This document shows positions 178 to 36,570 of a stretch of DNA of 64,000 nt, piece by piece. Source of the DNA: Thermoguttaceae bacterium (lineage in GTDB: Bacteria; Planctomycetota; Planctomycetia; Pirellulales; Thermoguttaceae); contig JANXAQ010000255.1 of the NCBI GenBank assembly GCA_025062105.1, positions 1-64,000 on the forward strand, in the 5' to 3' direction. Position 1 is the stretch's first letter; each line of letters begins with the position of its first letter. The translations under genes and the position numbers were made by a program. Under the pieces are notes generated by a model. It ran no database searches. It saw only the letters and a list, made by a program, of their open reading frames with translations, and was not told the origin of the DNA.

Positions 178-364
178 GGAACCTCTGCAAAACCCTGAAC
201 ATATAGTGAACTTCATGAACTTCTGATTCGGTAGGCATTTGGCTGCCGCATCCTAACACCTACCATATATAGCGTGTTAGCAGGGCTAGCACCCTATATA
301 TTGGGTCAGATATGACGGGAAAAATAGTATAAAAAATATATGCTCTGAATTATGCAGAGGTTCC
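178..364 (+). repeat. R1 element, full length
   Basis: This is a complete R1 copy with both terminal inverted repeats (GGAACCTCTGCA at the left, TGCAGAGGTTCC at the right). Its right end abuts an R3 element whose first 110 bases or so are missing, which suggests that R1 inserted into or truncated that R3 copy. Confidence 0.9.
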
Positions 365-559
365 TATAGGCAATCTAGCTAAAACGCTCTTTGAAACCGA
401 GCACTTTTTGCTCTGGGAAGTGATTTTTCTAAAATGCTGCAATTTCTCCAAAGTAACAATTAGCTTCTTTTTGAAAGGTTTCGTTATTCCCCTGTTTGGG
501 GTAATAATTTGCTGCCGTTAGGATGGGAAATCCCGCCCAAAAATGTGTATAAGAGCGAG
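365..559 (+). mobile_element. R3 MITE-like element, left part missing
   Basis: This matches the reverse complement of about 8697-8890 over roughly 190 bases, with shared blocks such as GAGCACTTTTTGCTC, CCAAAGTAACAATTA and TTTGCTGCCGTTAG. It ends in a diverged TAAGAGCGAG terminus. The left 110 bases expected from the copy at 8697-8991 are replaced by R1. Confidence 0.75.
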
Positions 560-678
560 CCCAAAAAAGGCAGCTCTGTTTAAGCCTTTTGGGGGGGAAC
601 CCAAAGCTCAAAAGAGGGGATTAACCCGAACATTTTGAAACTCCTCTGCCCACTTCCGATACACCTTTCCCCAGCACT

Positions 679-8686: not shown

Positions 8687-8696
8687 ATATAAGCAG

Positions 8697-8991
8697 CTCG
8701 CTGTTATACACATTTTTGGGAGGTATTTCCCATTCTTTCTAACGGCAGCAAATGATTGCCCCAAACAGGGGAAGAACCAACCTTTCTAGAGAAGTTAATT
8801 GTTACTTTGGAAAAATTGGAGCATTTAGGAAAGATCACTTCCAAGAGCAAAAAGTGCTTGGTTTCAAAGAATGTCTTAGCTAGATCGCCTATTGTATCCA
8901 TTGTGCGTGGTTCAACGAGCTTTTGGTATTTGCCTGATTTGCCTAAAGTAAAGTTCGAACGTCTCAACGCCAACTTGTGTATAACAGCGAG
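8697..8991 (-). mobile_element. R3 MITE-like element, full length
   Basis: This is the only uninterrupted R3 copy, 295 bp. Its ends CTCGCTGTTATACACA and TGTGTATAACAGCGAG are perfect 16-bp inverted repeats. The flanks ATATAAGCAG (8687-8696) and CTATACGCAG (8992-9001) agree at 8 of 10 positions and look like an aged 10-bp target duplication. It serves as the reference for the interrupted copy at 16001-16477 and the truncated one at 365-559. Confidence 0.85.
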
Positions 8992-9138
8992 CTATACGCA
9001 GGAAGGGCAAAGAGTCCCTTCGGCGGAACTGTTACCATTTTCTAATGTAAAAAAGTAGAAAACACTCTACAACCGTATCCACCTCGATTTTTTTCCTTTT
9101 TAAGCAACTGCTTATCCTCTAGATGGTTCCTAAAAATC

Positions 9139-15357: not shown

Positions 15358-15996
15358 ATGGCATCGAATATTGCTGGACCATTGCTGAACACAGCCAAGC
15401 CTAGGTTGATTCAGCGGATTGTGCAATACCCGCATCCTGCGCTTCGGCATCGCTGCAGGCCGCTCCGGCAGGTCGATGCGGAGCTTTGGCAGATGGTGGC
15501 CGAAATGTTGGAACTGATGTATGAGCGGGATGGGGTTGGTTTGGCGGCCAATCAGGTGGATTTGCCGTATCGGCTTTTTGTCATGAATCCTACCGGGGAT
15601 CGGACTCAAAAGGAACAGGAGTTTGTGTTGATCAACCCGGAGATTCTGAGCCGAAAGGGAGGGATGGAAGAAAAGGAAGAAGGGTGTTTGAGTTTGCCAG
15701 GTATTTTTGCGCCAGTGCGCCGATCGTCTAAGATCGTTCTGGCGGCGTATAACCTTCAGGGCCAGGAGGTCAAATACGAGTTTGAGGGCTTGGCTGCCCG
15801 GGCTGCCCAACATGAACTGGACCATTTGGACGGAGTGTTGTTTATTGATCGGCTCAGGCCAGCCTGTTTAGCCGAGATCCGGGAAAAACTTTTGGAATTG
15901 GAACAGGAGTTTAGGACGAATCGTCGGCTGGGGCTGATTCCGGATGACGCCCAGATTGCTGCTCGATTAGCGGCTCTAGAAGCCCTCCGCACGTAA
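15358..15996 (+). CDS. def: peptide deformylase
   Basis: This metalloenzyme removes the formyl group from the N-terminal methionine of new proteins. All three signature motifs are present in the 212-residue chain: GVGLAANQ (motif I), EEGCLSLPG with the metal-binding Cys (motif II) and QHELDHLDG with two His ligands and the catalytic Glu (motif III). The length is slightly above the usual 170-200 residues, because of a C-terminal helical tail. The ATG at 15358 is 11 bases from an R2 end, with only GGGG as a weak ribosome site. The TAA stop lies in the 10-bp target duplication (15991-16000) of an R3 element. No fmt gene is adjacent. Confidence 0.96.
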   Translation: MASNIAGPLLNTAKPRLIQRIVQYPHPALRHRCRPLRQVDAELWQMVAEMLELMYERDGVGLAANQVDLPYRLFVMNPTGDRTQKEQEFVLINPEILSRKGGMEEKEEGCLSLPGIFAPVRRSSKIVLAAYNLQGQEVKYEFEGLAARAAQHELDHLDGVLFIDRLRPACLAEIREKLLELEQEFRTNRRLGLIPDDAQIAARLAALEALRT

Positions 15997-16000
15997 ATAG

Positions 16001-16477
16001 CTCGCTGTTTTACACAAGTTGGTGGAAGTGGTCGGACCTCATTTAGGCAAATCCCAAAGCTCGCTGAAAAGAGCAGAATGGATAAAATAGGCAATATGGG
16101 CAAAACAGTTTCTAAAATCAAACATTTCCTGTTCTTCCAAATGTGATGGACCTCTACAAAATCTTGAACATATAGTGAACTTCATGAACTTTTCGATTTT
16201 ATACCCATTGGGTTTTCTTCTCTCCGAACACCTACCCTACTATGGACTTCTTAGCAATCTGGCTCCCTAGATATTGGGTTAGAAGGGGATCAGCAAACAT
16301 GGTAAAAAATATCCTCTTCTTCAATGATGCAGGGTTCCCCTAAAGATGGAATTTTCTCAAGGTAACAATTGCCTTCTCTTGAAAGGTTTGTTCTCCCACT
16401 CTATTTCCGCCTATTTGGAGCAATTACTTCTAGCCGGCTTGATGGTAATACCCACAAAGATGGGGGACAACAGCGAG
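16001..16477 (+). mobile_element. R3 MITE-like element interrupted by R1, with perfect 10-bp target duplication
   Basis: The ends are CTCGCTGTTTTACACA and GGGGGACAACAGCGAG. It is flanked by ACGTAAATAG on both sides (15991-16000 and 16478-16487). Removing the R1 at 16148-16338 leaves about 286 bp that align along their length with the reverse complement of 8697-8991. The left duplication contains the def stop codon. Confidence 0.88.
16148..16338 (+). repeat. R1 element nested in R3
   Basis: The ends are GGACCTCTACAAAATCTTG and TGATGCAGGGTTCC. It sits in the R3 copy between the blocks AAATGTGAT and CCTAAAGATGG, which are contiguous (apart from a few bases) in the intact R3 at 8697-8991. Confidence 0.85.
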
Positions 16478-16633
16478 ACGTAAATAGGCAGAGACGAAAA
16501 ACATTTCAGGGGAGTAGAGTACTACATTGGGATCTGGCTATTTGGAGAACATAGGCATTTTAGGAAAAGCAAGTCCTCGCTCTAGAAACCCCAAAGGTTT
16601 CTAAAATAATTTTTTAATGTTTTTCCCAAATTC

Positions 16634-17890
16634 ATGGCCACTTCATTCGGAAGAGTTCAAGCATCTTCTAATCAAGCAATGTGTATGCTGTTTAAATTAT
16701 CTATGATTTGCAAAACACCTATTTTTTGTATTTTACTTCCATCATTAATTGTGCATGGCTCTCTAAAACCACTGTTTGCTCAAGTCCCGGAAGAAGTCAA
16801 ACAAACCGCTCTTCGGTTCGGTAAACTCCTGGGCCCAAAACCTTATGTTAAACCTCCCGATTGGGCTAATCCCGATGCTCCGCTGCTTTTCAGCTTCGCT
16901 TGGCTAACCGATATGCATCTAGATGGGTCGAACCACCAACAGATGGAAAAGACCCTTGGATGGATTCGGCAAGAATTAAAACCGACCTTTTTGCTGCTGA
17001 CAGGGGATAATAGCGCCTTCGTGCCGGCAGGAGGCGGCAGCGGCCAGCCGGTCCTCCGCAACCTCCGACGCCAACAGTACTTGCAGCAGTGGTTGGCTGA
17101 GCATTGGAAAGGGCCTTATGCTATTATCCCCGGCGACAATTGGCCTGAGGGGTTTGAAGGGGTTTTCGGCCCTCGGCAATACCGGCTGGCCTGTGGAGGC
17201 TTGCACTTGCTGATGTTAGCGCCGGATGCCATGCACCATGGCCCGGGCTTAGAAGGGCTTTCGGCTTTTGACCCGGAAACTCTCGATTGGCTACGGAAAG
17301 ACTTGGAAAAGTATCGGCTGCATCCGACGCTGGTGGCTATTCATGAGCCGATCTATCCTCCTACCTTTATCGATGCCCCCCGAGTTCGGAAGATTCTAAA
17401 AGAGTTTCCTCAGGTCATTGGTGTTTTGCAAGGGCATTTGCATATCGACTTGGAGCTTCGGGATGGTCAGCAGCAGTATTTGGTCGCTCCGGCGGTTGGC
17501 CCAGGCCTGCCCCCGGCTTTCAAATACCTGCAGGTGTATCGGCATATACTGATCATACGAACAGCAGAACTAGATCCGAAAAGCGGCCAATGGCGATTGG
17601 CGAACAAATGGCAAAAAATTCATATTCCTCCACCGTTCCAGCAGGTGCTTGAGCCGGTAGCTGAGGCAAGCCATTCCACTAGCCGCTCTGACTCTCGCAT
17701 GGCCAGCGGCACCGAAAGCCCTAGTTGGCCTGGCCGGCAAAAGCCGCTCCTGATCCTCTCTTGGCGCCCGCCGCAGCCAGTCCGGGACGATCCGGCCCTT
17801 GTGCGCCGAGCAAACGAATTGCTAGAGGCCATCCGGCAATTTCTATGGAAAGAAACTCCCCGACTATGGATGGAAGCCGCAGGCCGATAA
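16634..17890 (+). CDS. exported calcineurin-like metallophosphoesterase
   Basis: The protein has up to 418 residues, with a hydrophobic signal segment (about 29-49, cleavage after FAQ). A metallophosphoesterase fold follows. Metal-binding motifs visible are LTDMHLD (D93, H95), LLTGDN (D125), AIHEP and LQGHLH. The usual GNHD motif is replaced by IPGDNW near 172, so the catalytic His/Asn arrangement differs from classical members. It could be a phosphodiesterase or phosphatase acting outside the cytoplasm; the substrate is unknown. The start is uncertain: ATG codons at 16634, 16679, 16685 and 16703 all precede the signal segment and none has a clear ribosome-binding site. It stands alone. Confidence 0.8.
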   Translation: MATSFGRVQASSNQAMCMLFKLSMICKTPIFCILLPSLIVHGSLKPLFAQVPEEVKQTALRFGKLLGPKPYVKPPDWANPDAPLLFSFAWLTDMHLDGSNHQQMEKTLGWIRQELKPTFLLLTGDNSAFVPAGGGSGQPVLRNLRRQQYLQQWLAEHWKGPYAIIPGDNWPEGFEGVFGPRQYRLACGGLHLLMLAPDAMHHGPGLEGLSAFDPETLDWLRKDLEKYRLHPTLVAIHEPIYPPTFIDAPRVRKILKEFPQVIGVLQGHLHIDLELRDGQQQYLVAPAVGPGLPPAFKYLQVYRHILIIRTAELDPKSGQWRLANKWQKIHIPPPFQQVLEPVAEASHSTSRSDSRMASGTESPSWPGRQKPLLILSWRPPQPVRDDPALVRRANELLEAIRQFLWKETPRLWMEAAGR

Positions 17891-32240: not shown

Positions 32241-32398
32241 AAGTCCCCCTCACCCGGCATTGCCTTCGGCAATGCCACCCTCTCCCGCAGTGGGGAGAGG
32301 GAGTTTCCCCCTCACCCGGCTTGGCCTTTGGCCAAGCCACCCTCTCCCCCACTGGAGCGAGGGACTTTTCTGGATCCCTGCTTGCGCAGGGATGACGG
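32241..32398. repeat. R8/R9 hairpin array
   Basis: Two R8 units in a row are seen (each CCCCTCACCCGGC, a TTGCC-GGCAA type stem, CCACCCTCTCCC), then one R9 unit (CTGGATCCCTGC, TTGC, GCAGGGATGAC). Each can fold as a stable stem. This could be a transcript-end or mRNA-stability element between two minus-strand genes. Confidence 0.65.
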
Positions 32399-32515
32399 GT
32401 GCGTAATGTCTGGCTGCATTTGGCGGAAGGGTACAATGGTATTTTACAGGCGTTTACCAACATTGCCTAAGTTTGGCTTTAGCGAAGGCATTTGGTCGAA
32501 GAGGGCGATGTTGTT

Positions 32516-34123
32516 TTACAAGCTCCAGCCTGGGCGGTATTCGCTGCGCAGAAGCTGATCCGCTTCGGGCAGGTTAGTGATTTTCATGGCCAAGGGATCA
32601 TATTCGATCGGCTGCTCAAACTGAGTGGCGATGTTGCCGAGCATGAGGAATTCGTTCAAGGCGGCGGCGTAGTCGAACTGGCTCCAAGGGGCCTCTCCGC
32701 CCCGGCAGGCGGCAAGCCAATCCTGTTCTGGCCCCCGGGAAGCCGGAACCGTCTCGGGCCGCTCGGTCTGCACGCCGGTAAACCGATCCGCCGGCAAAAG
32801 TCGAAACCACATGTTATGCCCAGTGGTGTGAATACTGCCTTTTTCGCCCACGATCAGGGTGCCGGCAAAGTGCCACAGTCCGCGCTGTTTTTCCGGGGCG
32901 TCCTGCATGATGGGTTTTAGAAGCTCTTCCAGGCCGGGTGCTGGGCCGTTGAGCCACTGGAAGGTAATCGGCGGCCATTTGCCGCGGGCTGGAATCTCCC
33001 AGTAAACTTTTTCCCATCTTGGGAACGAAAGTCGATTGACGCCCGAAGTCTCTGCCCGGATCCGGATTTTCGGCGGTGCACTGGCAGAAGGCGTTTGGCC
33101 CGCCCCTGGCAAGACCGACCGGCCTGCCGCTGCCGGTGCCGAGGCATCTGCTGAAGCCGATGGTTTAGCAGCGCCGGACTGCTCTGCCGGCGCCGAAACC
33201 GCCTCCGCCGACCAAAGCCTATGCACCTCTAGGGCCATGAAGGCCAAGTTGGCCGTGTGTGAGGCCCAATTGCCCAATTGCCCGGTACCAAACTCCCGCC
33301 ACAGGTTCCGGTTGAGCCAGTCGGAATGGAACGGTCGGTACGCTGCTGGTCCAAGCCAAAGATCCCAGTGCAGGTGTTTTGGAACGGGCATTTCCCCTTT
33401 GGGCGGCTCTCGACGATCGGCTCCGCCAGCATCGTTCCAAATATATACCTCCCGGATTTGGCCTAGAGCGCCAGTACGGATTAGTTCCAAGGCCCGGCGG
33501 AACGGTCCGCTGTAGGTCCCCTGGTTACCCATGGCCGTTGCCACTTTGTACTGTCGGGCCAAGTCCCGTAGGGTCCGAGATTCATGGACCGTTCTGGTGA
33601 GCGGTTTTTCACAGAAGACATGTTTCCCGGATCGGATGGCCGCCGCACTGGCTACCGCATGGGTATGGTCCGGCGTAGCAACCACAACAGCGTCGATTTT
33701 AGCGCCCATTTCCTGGAGCATTTTGCGGAAGTCGGCAAAAACGGGCGGCTTCTTTTCAGCCAAACGACGATAGATTTCGGCGGCCTGCCGCTCCCAGGGA
33801 TGCGGAGAGTCGGCCCAACGGCGGCTTGTTTCGTCCAAGAATCGGAACGTCTCTTCGACTTTCAGGTCGTTGACATCGCACAGAGCGACCAAGTCGGCCA
33901 TTTTGGGGATGGTTTCCACAAACCAGCGTCCCCGGCCCCCTACGCCAATCAGAGCCACTTGGACTTTCTCGTTGGCCGCATAGGCCCGAAGTAGCCGAGC
34001 GGGTAACACCGCCCAGCCCACGGCCGCCCCAGCCGCCCCACTCAAGCCGCTTTTTACCAAGCCGCCCAGTCCGACCCCTAAACCTGTCTGTACCAACTGC
34101 CGCCGAGTGATCTTGTTGCTCAT
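32516..34123 (-). CDS. exported Gfo/Idh/MocA-family oxidoreductase
   Basis: This 535-residue protein starts with a twin-arginine signal (ITRRQLVQTGLGVGLGGLV). An NAD(P)-binding Rossmann domain shows GVGGRG at about 60-65, ATPDHTHAVAS at 149-160 and the EKP motif at 172-174 (HVFCEKPLT), the Lys being the usual catalytic or cofactor residue. The C-terminal beta-sheet domain is interrupted by an Ala/Ser/Pro-rich insert near 320-360 that looks like a linker. Such exported Gfo/Idh proteins oxidise or reduce sugars, often with tightly bound cofactor. The start at 34123 is fixed by GGAGGAGGG upstream. The frame extends upstream through repeat sequence but without coding character. It is neighboured by the ThuA-DUF1080 gene on the same strand. 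Confidence 0.9.
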   Translation of the reverse strand: MSNKITRRQLVQTGLGVGLGGLVKSGLSGAAGAAVGWAVLPARLLRAYAANEKVQVALIGVGGRGRWFVETIPKMADLVALCDVNDLKVEETFRFLDETSRRWADSPHPWERQAAEIYRRLAEKKPPVFADFRKMLQEMGAKIDAVVVATPDHTHAVASAAAIRSGKHVFCEKPLTRTVHESRTLRDLARQYKVATAMGNQGTYSGPFRRALELIRTGALGQIREVYIWNDAGGADRREPPKGEMPVPKHLHWDLWLGPAAYRPFHSDWLNRNLWREFGTGQLGNWASHTANLAFMALEVHRLWSAEAVSAPAEQSGAAKPSASADASAPAAAGRSVLPGAGQTPSASAPPKIRIRAETSGVNRLSFPRWEKVYWEIPARGKWPPITFQWLNGPAPGLEELLKPIMQDAPEKQRGLWHFAGTLIVGEKGSIHTTGHNMWFRLLPADRFTGVQTERPETVPASRGPEQDWLAACRGGEAPWSQFDYAAALNEFLMLGNIATQFEQPIEYDPLAMKITNLPEADQLLRSEYRPGWSL

Positions 34124-34207
34124 AACCGCCCTCCTCCGAAAAATAGAAACCCTTTCCGCCGAATGCAAATCTCGTTTGTCATCCCTCCGCAACCAGGAAC
34201 TCAGAAA

Positions 34208-34312
34208 AAACTCCCTCTCCCCACTGCTCCCAGAGGGTGGCCCAGCACAAGCCAAGCTAACTGAGGGGGATTGGGTCTCATTCCCACGCAAACGGGAATC
34301 CAGGCTCCTTTA
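34208..34312. repeat. R8/R9 hairpins, degenerate
   Basis: CTCCCTCTCCCCACTGC and AGAGGGTGGCC are followed by TGAGGGGGATTG and an R9-like CATTCCCACG/CGGGAATCC pair. They lie upstream of the Gfo/Idh gene. Confidence 0.55.
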
Positions 34313-34422
34313 TCCCTGGTTTCGGTGCTAGGGTGGCCATCCTGCCCGCATTCCACCCCGTAGGGACTAGGCTCTGCCTAGGCCACCAATCCGGCCGGGC
34401 ACCGCCCCGGCCTTACCATCCC

Positions 34423-34512
34423 CTCTCCCCACCGCGGGAGAGGGTGGCCAACCGTTAGGTTGGCCGGGTGAGGGGGCCCTAGTCTCATCCCTGCGAAAGT
34501 AGCAGTCCAGGC
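34423..34512. repeat. R8/R9 hairpins
   Basis: CCCCTCTCCCC-ACC-GCGGGAGAGGG and TGGCCAACC/GGTTGGCCGGGTGAGGG form the two R8 stems. CTCATCCCTGCGAAAGTAG follows as a weak R9. Confidence 0.65.
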
Positions 34513-34721
34513 TTCCTTGAGCAGCCCGCTGGCAAAGGGAAGCAGGCCACTTGGACGGCGTCGCCTTCGGCTCCGCCGGGCTCCCCCACCCCTGGGGCAT
34601 TGGTATCTACATAACAGCTTTCTCCTACAAGATGTTGTGGCTTTGCCGACCAGTTTCCCCCAACATATTGTGGCTCCGAAAAGATGTGTAGATAGCCATG
34701 CCCCCGGGGAGAGACGTTTTT

Positions 34722-34752
34722 TTCTGGATCCCTGCCTGCGCAGGGATGACAC
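34722..34752. repeat. R9 palindrome
   Basis: CTGGATCCCTGC and GCAGGGATGAC form the hairpin. The remaining stretches of 34124-34976 contain no gene I can support. Confidence 0.6.
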
Positions 34753-34976
34753 GAAATGGCAGAGCCCAAGGAGTCAGGGCCTTTGCTTGCGTAGGGATGG
34801 CAGGCCGATTGTTCCGTTGGAAATCTTCCGGCTATTCCAGGATCCCTAACCGGCAGACCAATGGCCTTTTGCCTTATCATAGCGGACTGGCCTAGGGGTG
34901 GGCAACCGCCCACTTCCTACCCCCAATTTTTAACAACTTTTTTTGTCAAATTCTTAACGCCGACTTTGGGGGAGGT

Positions 34977-36215
34977 ATGATCAAAGTCGTCGGGATGTTC
35001 GAGGCTTCTCTGAAAGGTCTTCCGTTTTGCGAAAGGGTTGGAACGATGCCTCGGCTACTGAGGGGTGTGCTCACAGGCGGCATGGCGTTTCTAGCAGCCT
35101 TGTCTGGGGGAATCGCTTCGGCGGAAATCATTGGGCCGGCCTTGATCAACCGGGGCAACGTAGATACGGGGTTCAATTATATGTTCCTTTATGATACCGG
35201 CACGGCTACGCCCGGATTTACCCACTGGGGCTTTGCTACTTCCTGGGCTTTTTATAACGATAACGGGACCGCTCAATGCGGCCGGCAGGTAGAACCGGTG
35301 ATTTTGAAAAAAGTGGGCACGGAGTCTTGGGTAATTACCGGAGTGGGTCAGCCGATCACTACGCCTGCCACTATGAGCGGCGTGCAATCATTTCCATTTA
35401 TCTTGGCTTCGGGCAGTTCCGTGGTGGGACCAGGATATACTTTTGCCCATCGAGATCTAAATAATGCCGGAAGTATTGAGTTCGATTTCATCTCTCCCGG
35501 CACTCATCGGTATTTGGGTCGGGGAAGCAACGCCGATGTGGTGGGCGATCTGCTGAGTGGGTTTTCCACCCCCGCCAATCGGATTTACTCCATCCAATTT
35601 ACCACCCAGAACCAGCCCATGGTTCCGCTCGGAAATCCGCTTATCAACCGCGCCACCGATGATGGAGATAGCGGCATTTTCATCCATACCCAGGAGTTTT
35701 CCTTCTGGGCGCCGGTGGTCGAATGGGCCTTCTATGACAACGACAATTTCACGCCGGATCGGCAAATCACGCCGCTAATTCTGGAGAAAGTGGGCAATAA
35801 CTATATTATCCGCGGCATCGGCCAAACCCGCACCACCACCGAACGCGGGGAACAGCATTATCTGTTTGATGTAGTGGCAGGCAGCAACATGATTGGGCCG
35901 GGCTATTACTTCGGCTGGTGGACCGGCGCATGGGCCAACGGCCAGCCAACCGCCACCAACGCCGGAGTGATTGACTTTGACACGCTTGCCAGCGGCACGT
36001 TGGGCATCCTGTGGTTCCAGACGCCAGGCAACTTTGGGCTGGGCACGCAACTGACGGCCACCGGCCAGTTAGGCGTAGGCAGCTTCCATGCCCGGATGTA
36101 TTCGGTGGAGGTTACTTTGGCGGTTCCGGAACCGGCCAGCGCCCTGCTGGCATCCCTGGCCCTAGGAGCTATGGTAGGCCTAGTCTTTGTGCGCCGGCGG
36201 GTTCGGAGCAAATGA
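34977..36215 (+). CDS. exported PEP-CTERM protein with two homologous domains
   Basis: This protein of up to 412 residues has a signal peptide (about 24-50, MPRLLRGVLTGGMAF, cleavage near ASA) and a C-terminal PEP-CTERM sorting signal. The signal consists of VPEP at about 383, a hydrophobic helix and RRRVRSK at the end. Between them are two related beta-rich repeats of about 150-170 residues. Each starts ALINRG/PLINRA and contains WAFYND/WAFYDN, PVILKKVG/PLILEKVG, ITGVGQ/IRGIGQ and GPGY. The product should be exported and handled by an exosortase, none of which is in the window. ATG codons at 34977 and 35046 are both possible: GGGGGAGGT touches the first, too close for an ideal ribosome site, and the second begins the cleaner signal peptide. 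Confidence 0.85.
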   Translation: MIKVVGMFEASLKGLPFCERVGTMPRLLRGVLTGGMAFLAALSGGIASAEIIGPALINRGNVDTGFNYMFLYDTGTATPGFTHWGFATSWAFYNDNGTAQCGRQVEPVILKKVGTESWVITGVGQPITTPATMSGVQSFPFILASGSSVVGPGYTFAHRDLNNAGSIEFDFISPGTHRYLGRGSNADVVGDLLSGFSTPANRIYSIQFTTQNQPMVPLGNPLINRATDDGDSGIFIHTQEFSFWAPVVEWAFYDNDNFTPDRQITPLILEKVGNNYIIRGIGQTRTTTERGEQHYLFDVVAGSNMIGPGYYFGWWTGAWANGQPTATNAGVIDFDTLASGTLGILWFQTPGNFGLGTQLTATGQLGVGSFHARMYSVEVTLAVPEPASALLASLALGAMVGLVFVRRRVRSK

Positions 36216-36365
36216 ATCTCCGCCTTTTCAAGGAAGTCTTGGTTTTGAAAGGGGGTGCCGATGGCGAAAAGGAAATTATTCTCATTGTGGGGCTGGGGCC
36301 GATTGAATAGACAAGGTTTTTCACGTCGATCGGATTTCTCTTTTCCCCTTTGGCCTTTGGTGAAG

Positions 36366-36570
36366 GAGCCCCCTCACCCGGCTTGCCTGTCGGCAAGCCG
36401 GCCTCTGCCGCAAAGGGGAGAGGCGATAGGCGCCCCCTCACCCGGCCTGGCTACCGCAGGGCCACCCTCTTGAAGCAGGGGGGAGAGAGGAGTTTCTGGA
36501 TCCCTGCTTGCGCAGGGATGACAGGGAGCAGAACCAAGGCAACCTGGATTCCTGCTTTCGCAGGAATGCC
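36366..36570. repeat. R8/R9 hairpin array
   Basis: The series contains CCCTCACCCGGC-TTGCC-GGCAAGCC, CCGCAAAGGGGAGAGG, a second CCCCTCACCCGGCC unit, then two R9 hairpins (CTGGATCCCTGC/GCAGGGATGAC and TGGATTCCTGC/GCAGGAATGCC). It lies between convergent genes, which fits a role at transcript ends. The rest of 36216-36817 has no gene. Confidence 0.65.

Follow-up and report, generated by a model that had tools for sequence, protein, structure and literature searches.

Insertion sequences of the IS4 family as a whole generate direct repeats of about 10 bp, and within this family the IS50 subgroup has ends of the form CW------Y---CA-A--W- with direct repeats of 8-9 bp (PMC2266710). As for MITEs, a 2024 review states that prokaryotes have shown nothing comparable to the 8-10% which these elements make up in plants (PMC10969869). 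Both subjects meet in the stretch of 64,000 nucleotides analysed here (the window), which is contig C2 of the 6.07-Mb genome of a Thermoguttaceae bacterium (G000; 345 contigs, 94% complete). We consider, with a probability of about 0.9, that the sequence lying 3' of its def gene is an old non-coding mini-transposon, called R3, which was inserted by a Tn5-like (IS4 family) transposase with a 10-base staggered cut duplicating the target, and was later entered by a second mobile element, R1.

The features of the locus are collected in table 1. The sequence-only reading of this DNA had claimed a perfect 10-bp duplication that includes the stop codon of def, and both points are confirmed: ACGTAAATAG is present at 15991-16000 and again at 16478-16487, bracketing an element of 477 bp (16001-16477), and the left copy is made of the last def codon ACG (15991-15993), the stop TAA (15994-15996) and ATAG, so that it spans the stop and R3 starts 4 bp past the TAA. 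The element begins with CTCGCTGTTTTACACAAGT and ends with ...GACAACAGCGAG, the latter having four mismatches in its last 16 positions. When R1 is subtracted, the two remaining halves align to positions 282-143 and then 129-1 of the R3 consensus, relative to which the focal copy lies on the minus strand.

Table 1. Features of the focal locus and further R3 copies in the window
Feature	Position	Strand	Evidence
Third R3 copy in the window, one end truncated	359..560	-	Inverted matches to 8696-8899, 86-90% identity
Left flank of the 8697 copy, decayed 10-bp duplication, ATATAAGCAG	8687..8696	+	8/10 match to 8992-9001
Uninterrupted R3 copy, 295 bp	8697..8991	+	92% identity to R3 consensus (282 bp)
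Right flank of the 8697 copy, decayed 10-bp duplication, CTATACGCAG	8992..9001	+	8/10 match to 8687-8696
def, peptide deformylase, 212 aa, intact	15358..15996	+	Pfam PF01327, E 3.5e-52; relatives
Left copy of 10-bp target duplication, ACGTAAATAG	15991..16000	+	Sequence; family-wide flank comparison
R3, first part, terminal repeat CTCGCTGTTTTACACAAGT	16001..16147	-	81% identity to R3 consensus (282-143)
R1 MITE nested in R3, IS5-type ends	16148..16338	+	Family duplication 4 bp
R3, second part, terminal repeat ...GACAACAGCGAG	16339..16477	-	70% identity to R3 consensus (129-1)
Right copy of 10-bp target duplication, ACGTAAATAG	16478..16487	+	Sequence; family-wide flank comparison
Metallophosphatase gene downstream	16634..17890	+	PF00149; synteny with G002

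The site before insertion can be seen in a relative of the same genus, G002, in which the def protein is 78% identical, has the same terminus (...LRT-stop) and is followed directly 3' by the same metallophosphatase gene. The def junction of G002 reads CTCCGGACGTAAAATAAAGAATACC, with one copy of the duplicated sequence and without R3 (the single site is given as ACGTAAAATA / ...CGGACGTAAAATAAAG), and this is the empty site for which a check downstream of def in relatives had been suggested. In the other congener, G001, the site is likewise single but diverged (CGCACCTAATCCC), with a different downstream gene. The TAA of def is therefore original and was not brought by the insertion.

Turning to R3 as a family, its consensus measures 282 bp and has CTCGCTGTTATACACA at both ends, as terminal inverted repeats; allowing up to two mismatches, this end is matched 451 times genome-wide, as against twice for the reversed control. 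In 1.12 Mb of the genome there are 53 copies of 255-310 bp, 51 of them alignable to the reference copy at 8697-8991, and the full-length copies have a median identity to the consensus of 84.8%. A search of the R3 interior for a transposase match found none. R3 is therefore short, repeated and devoid of a transposase gene, with terminal inverted repeats and a target duplication of fixed length: it is a non-autonomous MITE of ~282 bp, of which the focal copy is one among a few hundred in the genome. The copy at 8697-8991, previously read as intact, is indeed complete and flanked by a decayed 10-bp duplication. Elsewhere in the genome, an R3 copy lies beside or within part of another one (L230, 4455-4861, contig C48).

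The flanks of 68 paired R3 copies from the same 1.12 Mb show a mean identity of 0.715 at a length of 10 bp, compared with a mean of 0.328 and a maximum of 0.378 for shuffled pairs (200 shuffles), and identities of 0.21-0.35 at the other lengths from 3 to 16; the duplication is perfect in 9 of the 68 pairs. The 10-bp duplication is a property of the R3 family and not a coincidence. At one locus, a short repeat could of course be due to chance, or have been there beforehand, and the sequence between its copies would then be no transposon insertion. Yet 10 bp at a given position would match perfectly by chance with a probability of only ~1e-6, and the recurrence of the same length over independent copies, together with the single copy in the empty site of G002, refutes this explanation, to which we give practically no weight. 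Given the median identity of 0.848, two flanks each diverged by ~15% should agree at ~0.72, which suggests that the duplications and the R3 elements are of the same age and decayed together. That the match is still perfect around the old focal copy may be explained in part by the coding constraint of def on the left duplicate.

The insertion of R1 into R3 is not limited to the focal copy. Further long R3 copies are split by R1-type sequence, at 149/180, 168/175, about 70 and 120/130 of the consensus, and since these positions differ, R1 entered R3 repeatedly and is the later element, in agreement with the order of events first proposed for 16148-16338. The R1 family has a duplication of 4 bp (identity 0.674 over 138 pairs vs 0.341 when shuffled), and none of this length is visible around the focal R1. 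Like R3, R1 is nearly private within the genus. On another contig, an element of 1.58 kb with R1-like ends (GGAACCTCTGAATAATTC) encloses the frame of an IS5-family transposase of 343 aa (NF033581; L071, G000:C56:2922-5540, at 668-2247), and it is likely to be the helper of R1, still present in the genome.

The target consensus of R3 over 43 sites, C-Y-Y-Y-[C-Y-N6-R-G]-R-R-R-G, is symmetric. Only 6 of 50 sites lie inside reading frames of at least 150 aa, compared with 145 of 250 random positions, which indicates that copies accumulate between genes. One could take this rarity in long reading frames as a sign that the copy behind def has been kept for some service to that gene, for instance as a transcript end or stabiliser. 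We regard such a role as very unlikely: avoidance of genes is expected merely from the removal of harmful insertions, R3 copies are degenerate, the focal one carries a further insertion, and the element is absent from this place in the sister species G002. The effect of R3 on def would rather be near neutral. REP palindromes were also considered as targets of R3 and rejected, the complementarity between arms being 2.74 of 8 in 50 targets vs 2.76 for shuffled mates; this rejection holds for the present genome, in which the motif is symmetric yet single palindromes are not enriched. REP-like palindromes do occur in the window, with several copies of CACCCTCTCCC...GGGAGAGGG at 32244-36470.

The identity of the enzyme that moved R3 has to be deduced from the ends of the element and the length of its duplication. 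The R3 end CTCGCTGTTATACACAAGT coincides at 16 of 19 places with the outside end of Tn5; the sequence-only reading had noticed neither this kinship with Tn5/IS50 nor how widely R3 is spread over the genome. It also fits the IS50 subgroup consensus as given in table 1 of PMC2266710, while its duplication of 10 bp departs from the 8-9 bp stated for that subgroup, so that R3 would be a 10-bp variant otherwise acting as an IS50-type element. Whether an element encoding a transposase has the same ends was a further check suggested at the outset, and its outcome is divided: negative within this genome, positive for near-identical ends in other families of the order. In this genome and its two congeners no Tn5 dimerisation domain (PF02281, Dimer_Tnp_Tn5) was found, and a Tn5-like transposase of the family member G006 (L126-type) retrieved no match when used as query against G000, an assembly 94% complete in which repeats break contigs. 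The 26 matches to the DDE transposase domain PF01609 present in the genome were rejected as candidate helpers, no R3 end pair being found around a transposase; the R3 ends near these matches belong to separate MITE copies.

A DDE transposase with the YREK signature is found in relatives with similar ends and not within G000. Three genomes from other families of the same order (G346, G259 and G324) have insertion sequences of 1559-1571 bp with ends CTCGTTGTTATACACAA and an open transposase frame; the transposases at L347, L352 and L353 match NF033590 (IS4) with E from 1e-98 to 1e-101 and contain YREK, and the related protein of G006 matches solved structures of Tn5 transposase (E 7e-36). Among eight paired autonomous copies in these genomes, three (L347, L348 and L350) have perfect 10-bp duplications and one a perfect duplication of 9 bp, the remaining four lying in palindromes without a perfect duplication. 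Elements with related ends have perfect 10-bp duplications also in G072 (L148, GGGTTGCACC; its transposase frame contains two stops) and G023 (L152, AGATTTATCT), and one in G017 with the end CTGTCGTTTATACACA has a 9-bp duplication (L150). As separate observations, the Tn5-like insertion sequences at L346-L353 sit inside palindromes of the GCCGGTGGC type, half of them without perfect duplication and some with flanks that are mutually inverted complements, as if palindromes had recombined; a Tn5-like insertion sequence of G006 (L147) has palindromic flanks, GGTGTATTCACC / GGTGAATACACC, in place of a direct repeat. Beyond the ~20-bp ends, R3 has no interior similarity to the autonomous elements, for which reason its origin as their deletion derivative was discarded.

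With only the ends in common, the link to a helper is based on these ends and the length of the duplication. Given that the searches of this genome yielded no Tn5-like transposase, R3 could instead have been moved by a different, unseen transposase family having Tn5-like ends and a 10-bp stagger. We hold this to be unlikely, because over 17-19 bp the ends of R3 agree with those of IS50-type elements and the duplication length is the same as in several IS4/Tn5-type copies of relatives, ends and length co-occurring in one order. The best explanation is still that a Tn5-like transposase moved R3 in this species, presumably by cut-and-paste chemistry. Such an enzyme, of the DDE type, would bind both ends of R3 as near-copies of the outside end of Tn5/IS50, excise the element and insert it at a target site opened by cuts 10 bases apart, whereupon gap filling would produce the 10-bp duplication. 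As the target lay across its stop, def retains its original TAA within the left duplicate; R3 sits between def and the metallophosphatase gene, and both genes are intact. Afterwards the unrelated IS5-type MITE, R1, jumped into the focal R3.

The distribution of R3 is narrow. Its end, with one mismatch, is found 333 times in this genome; G002 has two matches, G001 has none, and no further member of the family exceeds two (119 genomes in all); G002 has a single related MITE, with the perfect 10-bp duplication CTCTCGGCGG, and a search of named genomes for the exact pattern of paired R3 ends gave no match. R3 is thus nearly private to this species. It is not alone, however, in its genome. In a 290-kb sample, 9.4% of the sequence is covered by short matches having at least ten other copies, compared with 0.03% in G001 and 0.00% in G002 by the same measure on equal samples, which were taken nearly alike from the starts of the first ~20 contigs per genome. 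Over 1.33 Mb, short interspersed repeats reach 15.4% (858 intervals, median 196 bp), a figure to be read with the fact that this set (L177-L236, L409-L425 and the window, all of G000) was partly picked from contigs with matches and that a larger sample eases reaching ten copies. At least six families with terminal repeats contribute, with duplications of 4 bp (R1), 5 bp (R2, with a weaker signal), 10 bp (R3), 9 bp (GGCTCTGTTGAAA), 8 bp (GGGTGCGGCTGA) and about 7 bp (GTACTTTCTGAAAA); for a seventh candidate, CTGTCTGAAAAG, no duplication stood out clearly in the G000 samples. The early remark that a 10-bp duplication sets R3 apart from every other family therefore holds.

In evolutionary terms, at least six MITE families have probably invaded this lineage alone and account for most of a repeat content of 10-15% that its two congeners almost entirely lack, and R3, as a Tn5-like branch with 10-bp duplications, would be one of the invaders. 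This MITE load relative to the sister species is more surprising than the R3 insertion itself; the comparison is one with two congeners, and no record is claimed. R3 adds to Tn5-like transposition a MITE family that makes 10-bp duplications, and its dozens of natural insertions define a target motif. It also marks a bacterial genome whose load of short mobile repeats is plant-like and is missing in its nearest relatives. The contrast between species lets one ask what frees MITEs: a lost restraint, a lost selection, or a burst of helper transposase.

Compared with known systems, R3 resembles the bacterial MITEs Correia, ERIC and Chunjie (reviewed in PMC10969869) in being short, non-autonomous and mostly intergenic, with terminal inverted repeats and a target duplication, and differs from them in its IS4/Tn5-type ends with a 10-bp duplication and in belonging to a genome that is unusually heavily loaded with several MITE families. 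With the IS4-family insertion sequences of planctomycetes it shares perfect 10-bp duplications (G346, G072 and G023) and the kind of end given above (G346, G259 and G324). These sequences, unlike R3, encode a transposase, of the Tn5 type with YREK in G346, G259, G324 and G023; they measure 1.56-1.57 kb in G346, G259 and G324, and the copies of G346 are embedded in GC-rich REP-like palindromes. From IS50/Tn5 itself R3 is distinguished by having no transposase, by its 10-bp duplication and by the target motif described above.
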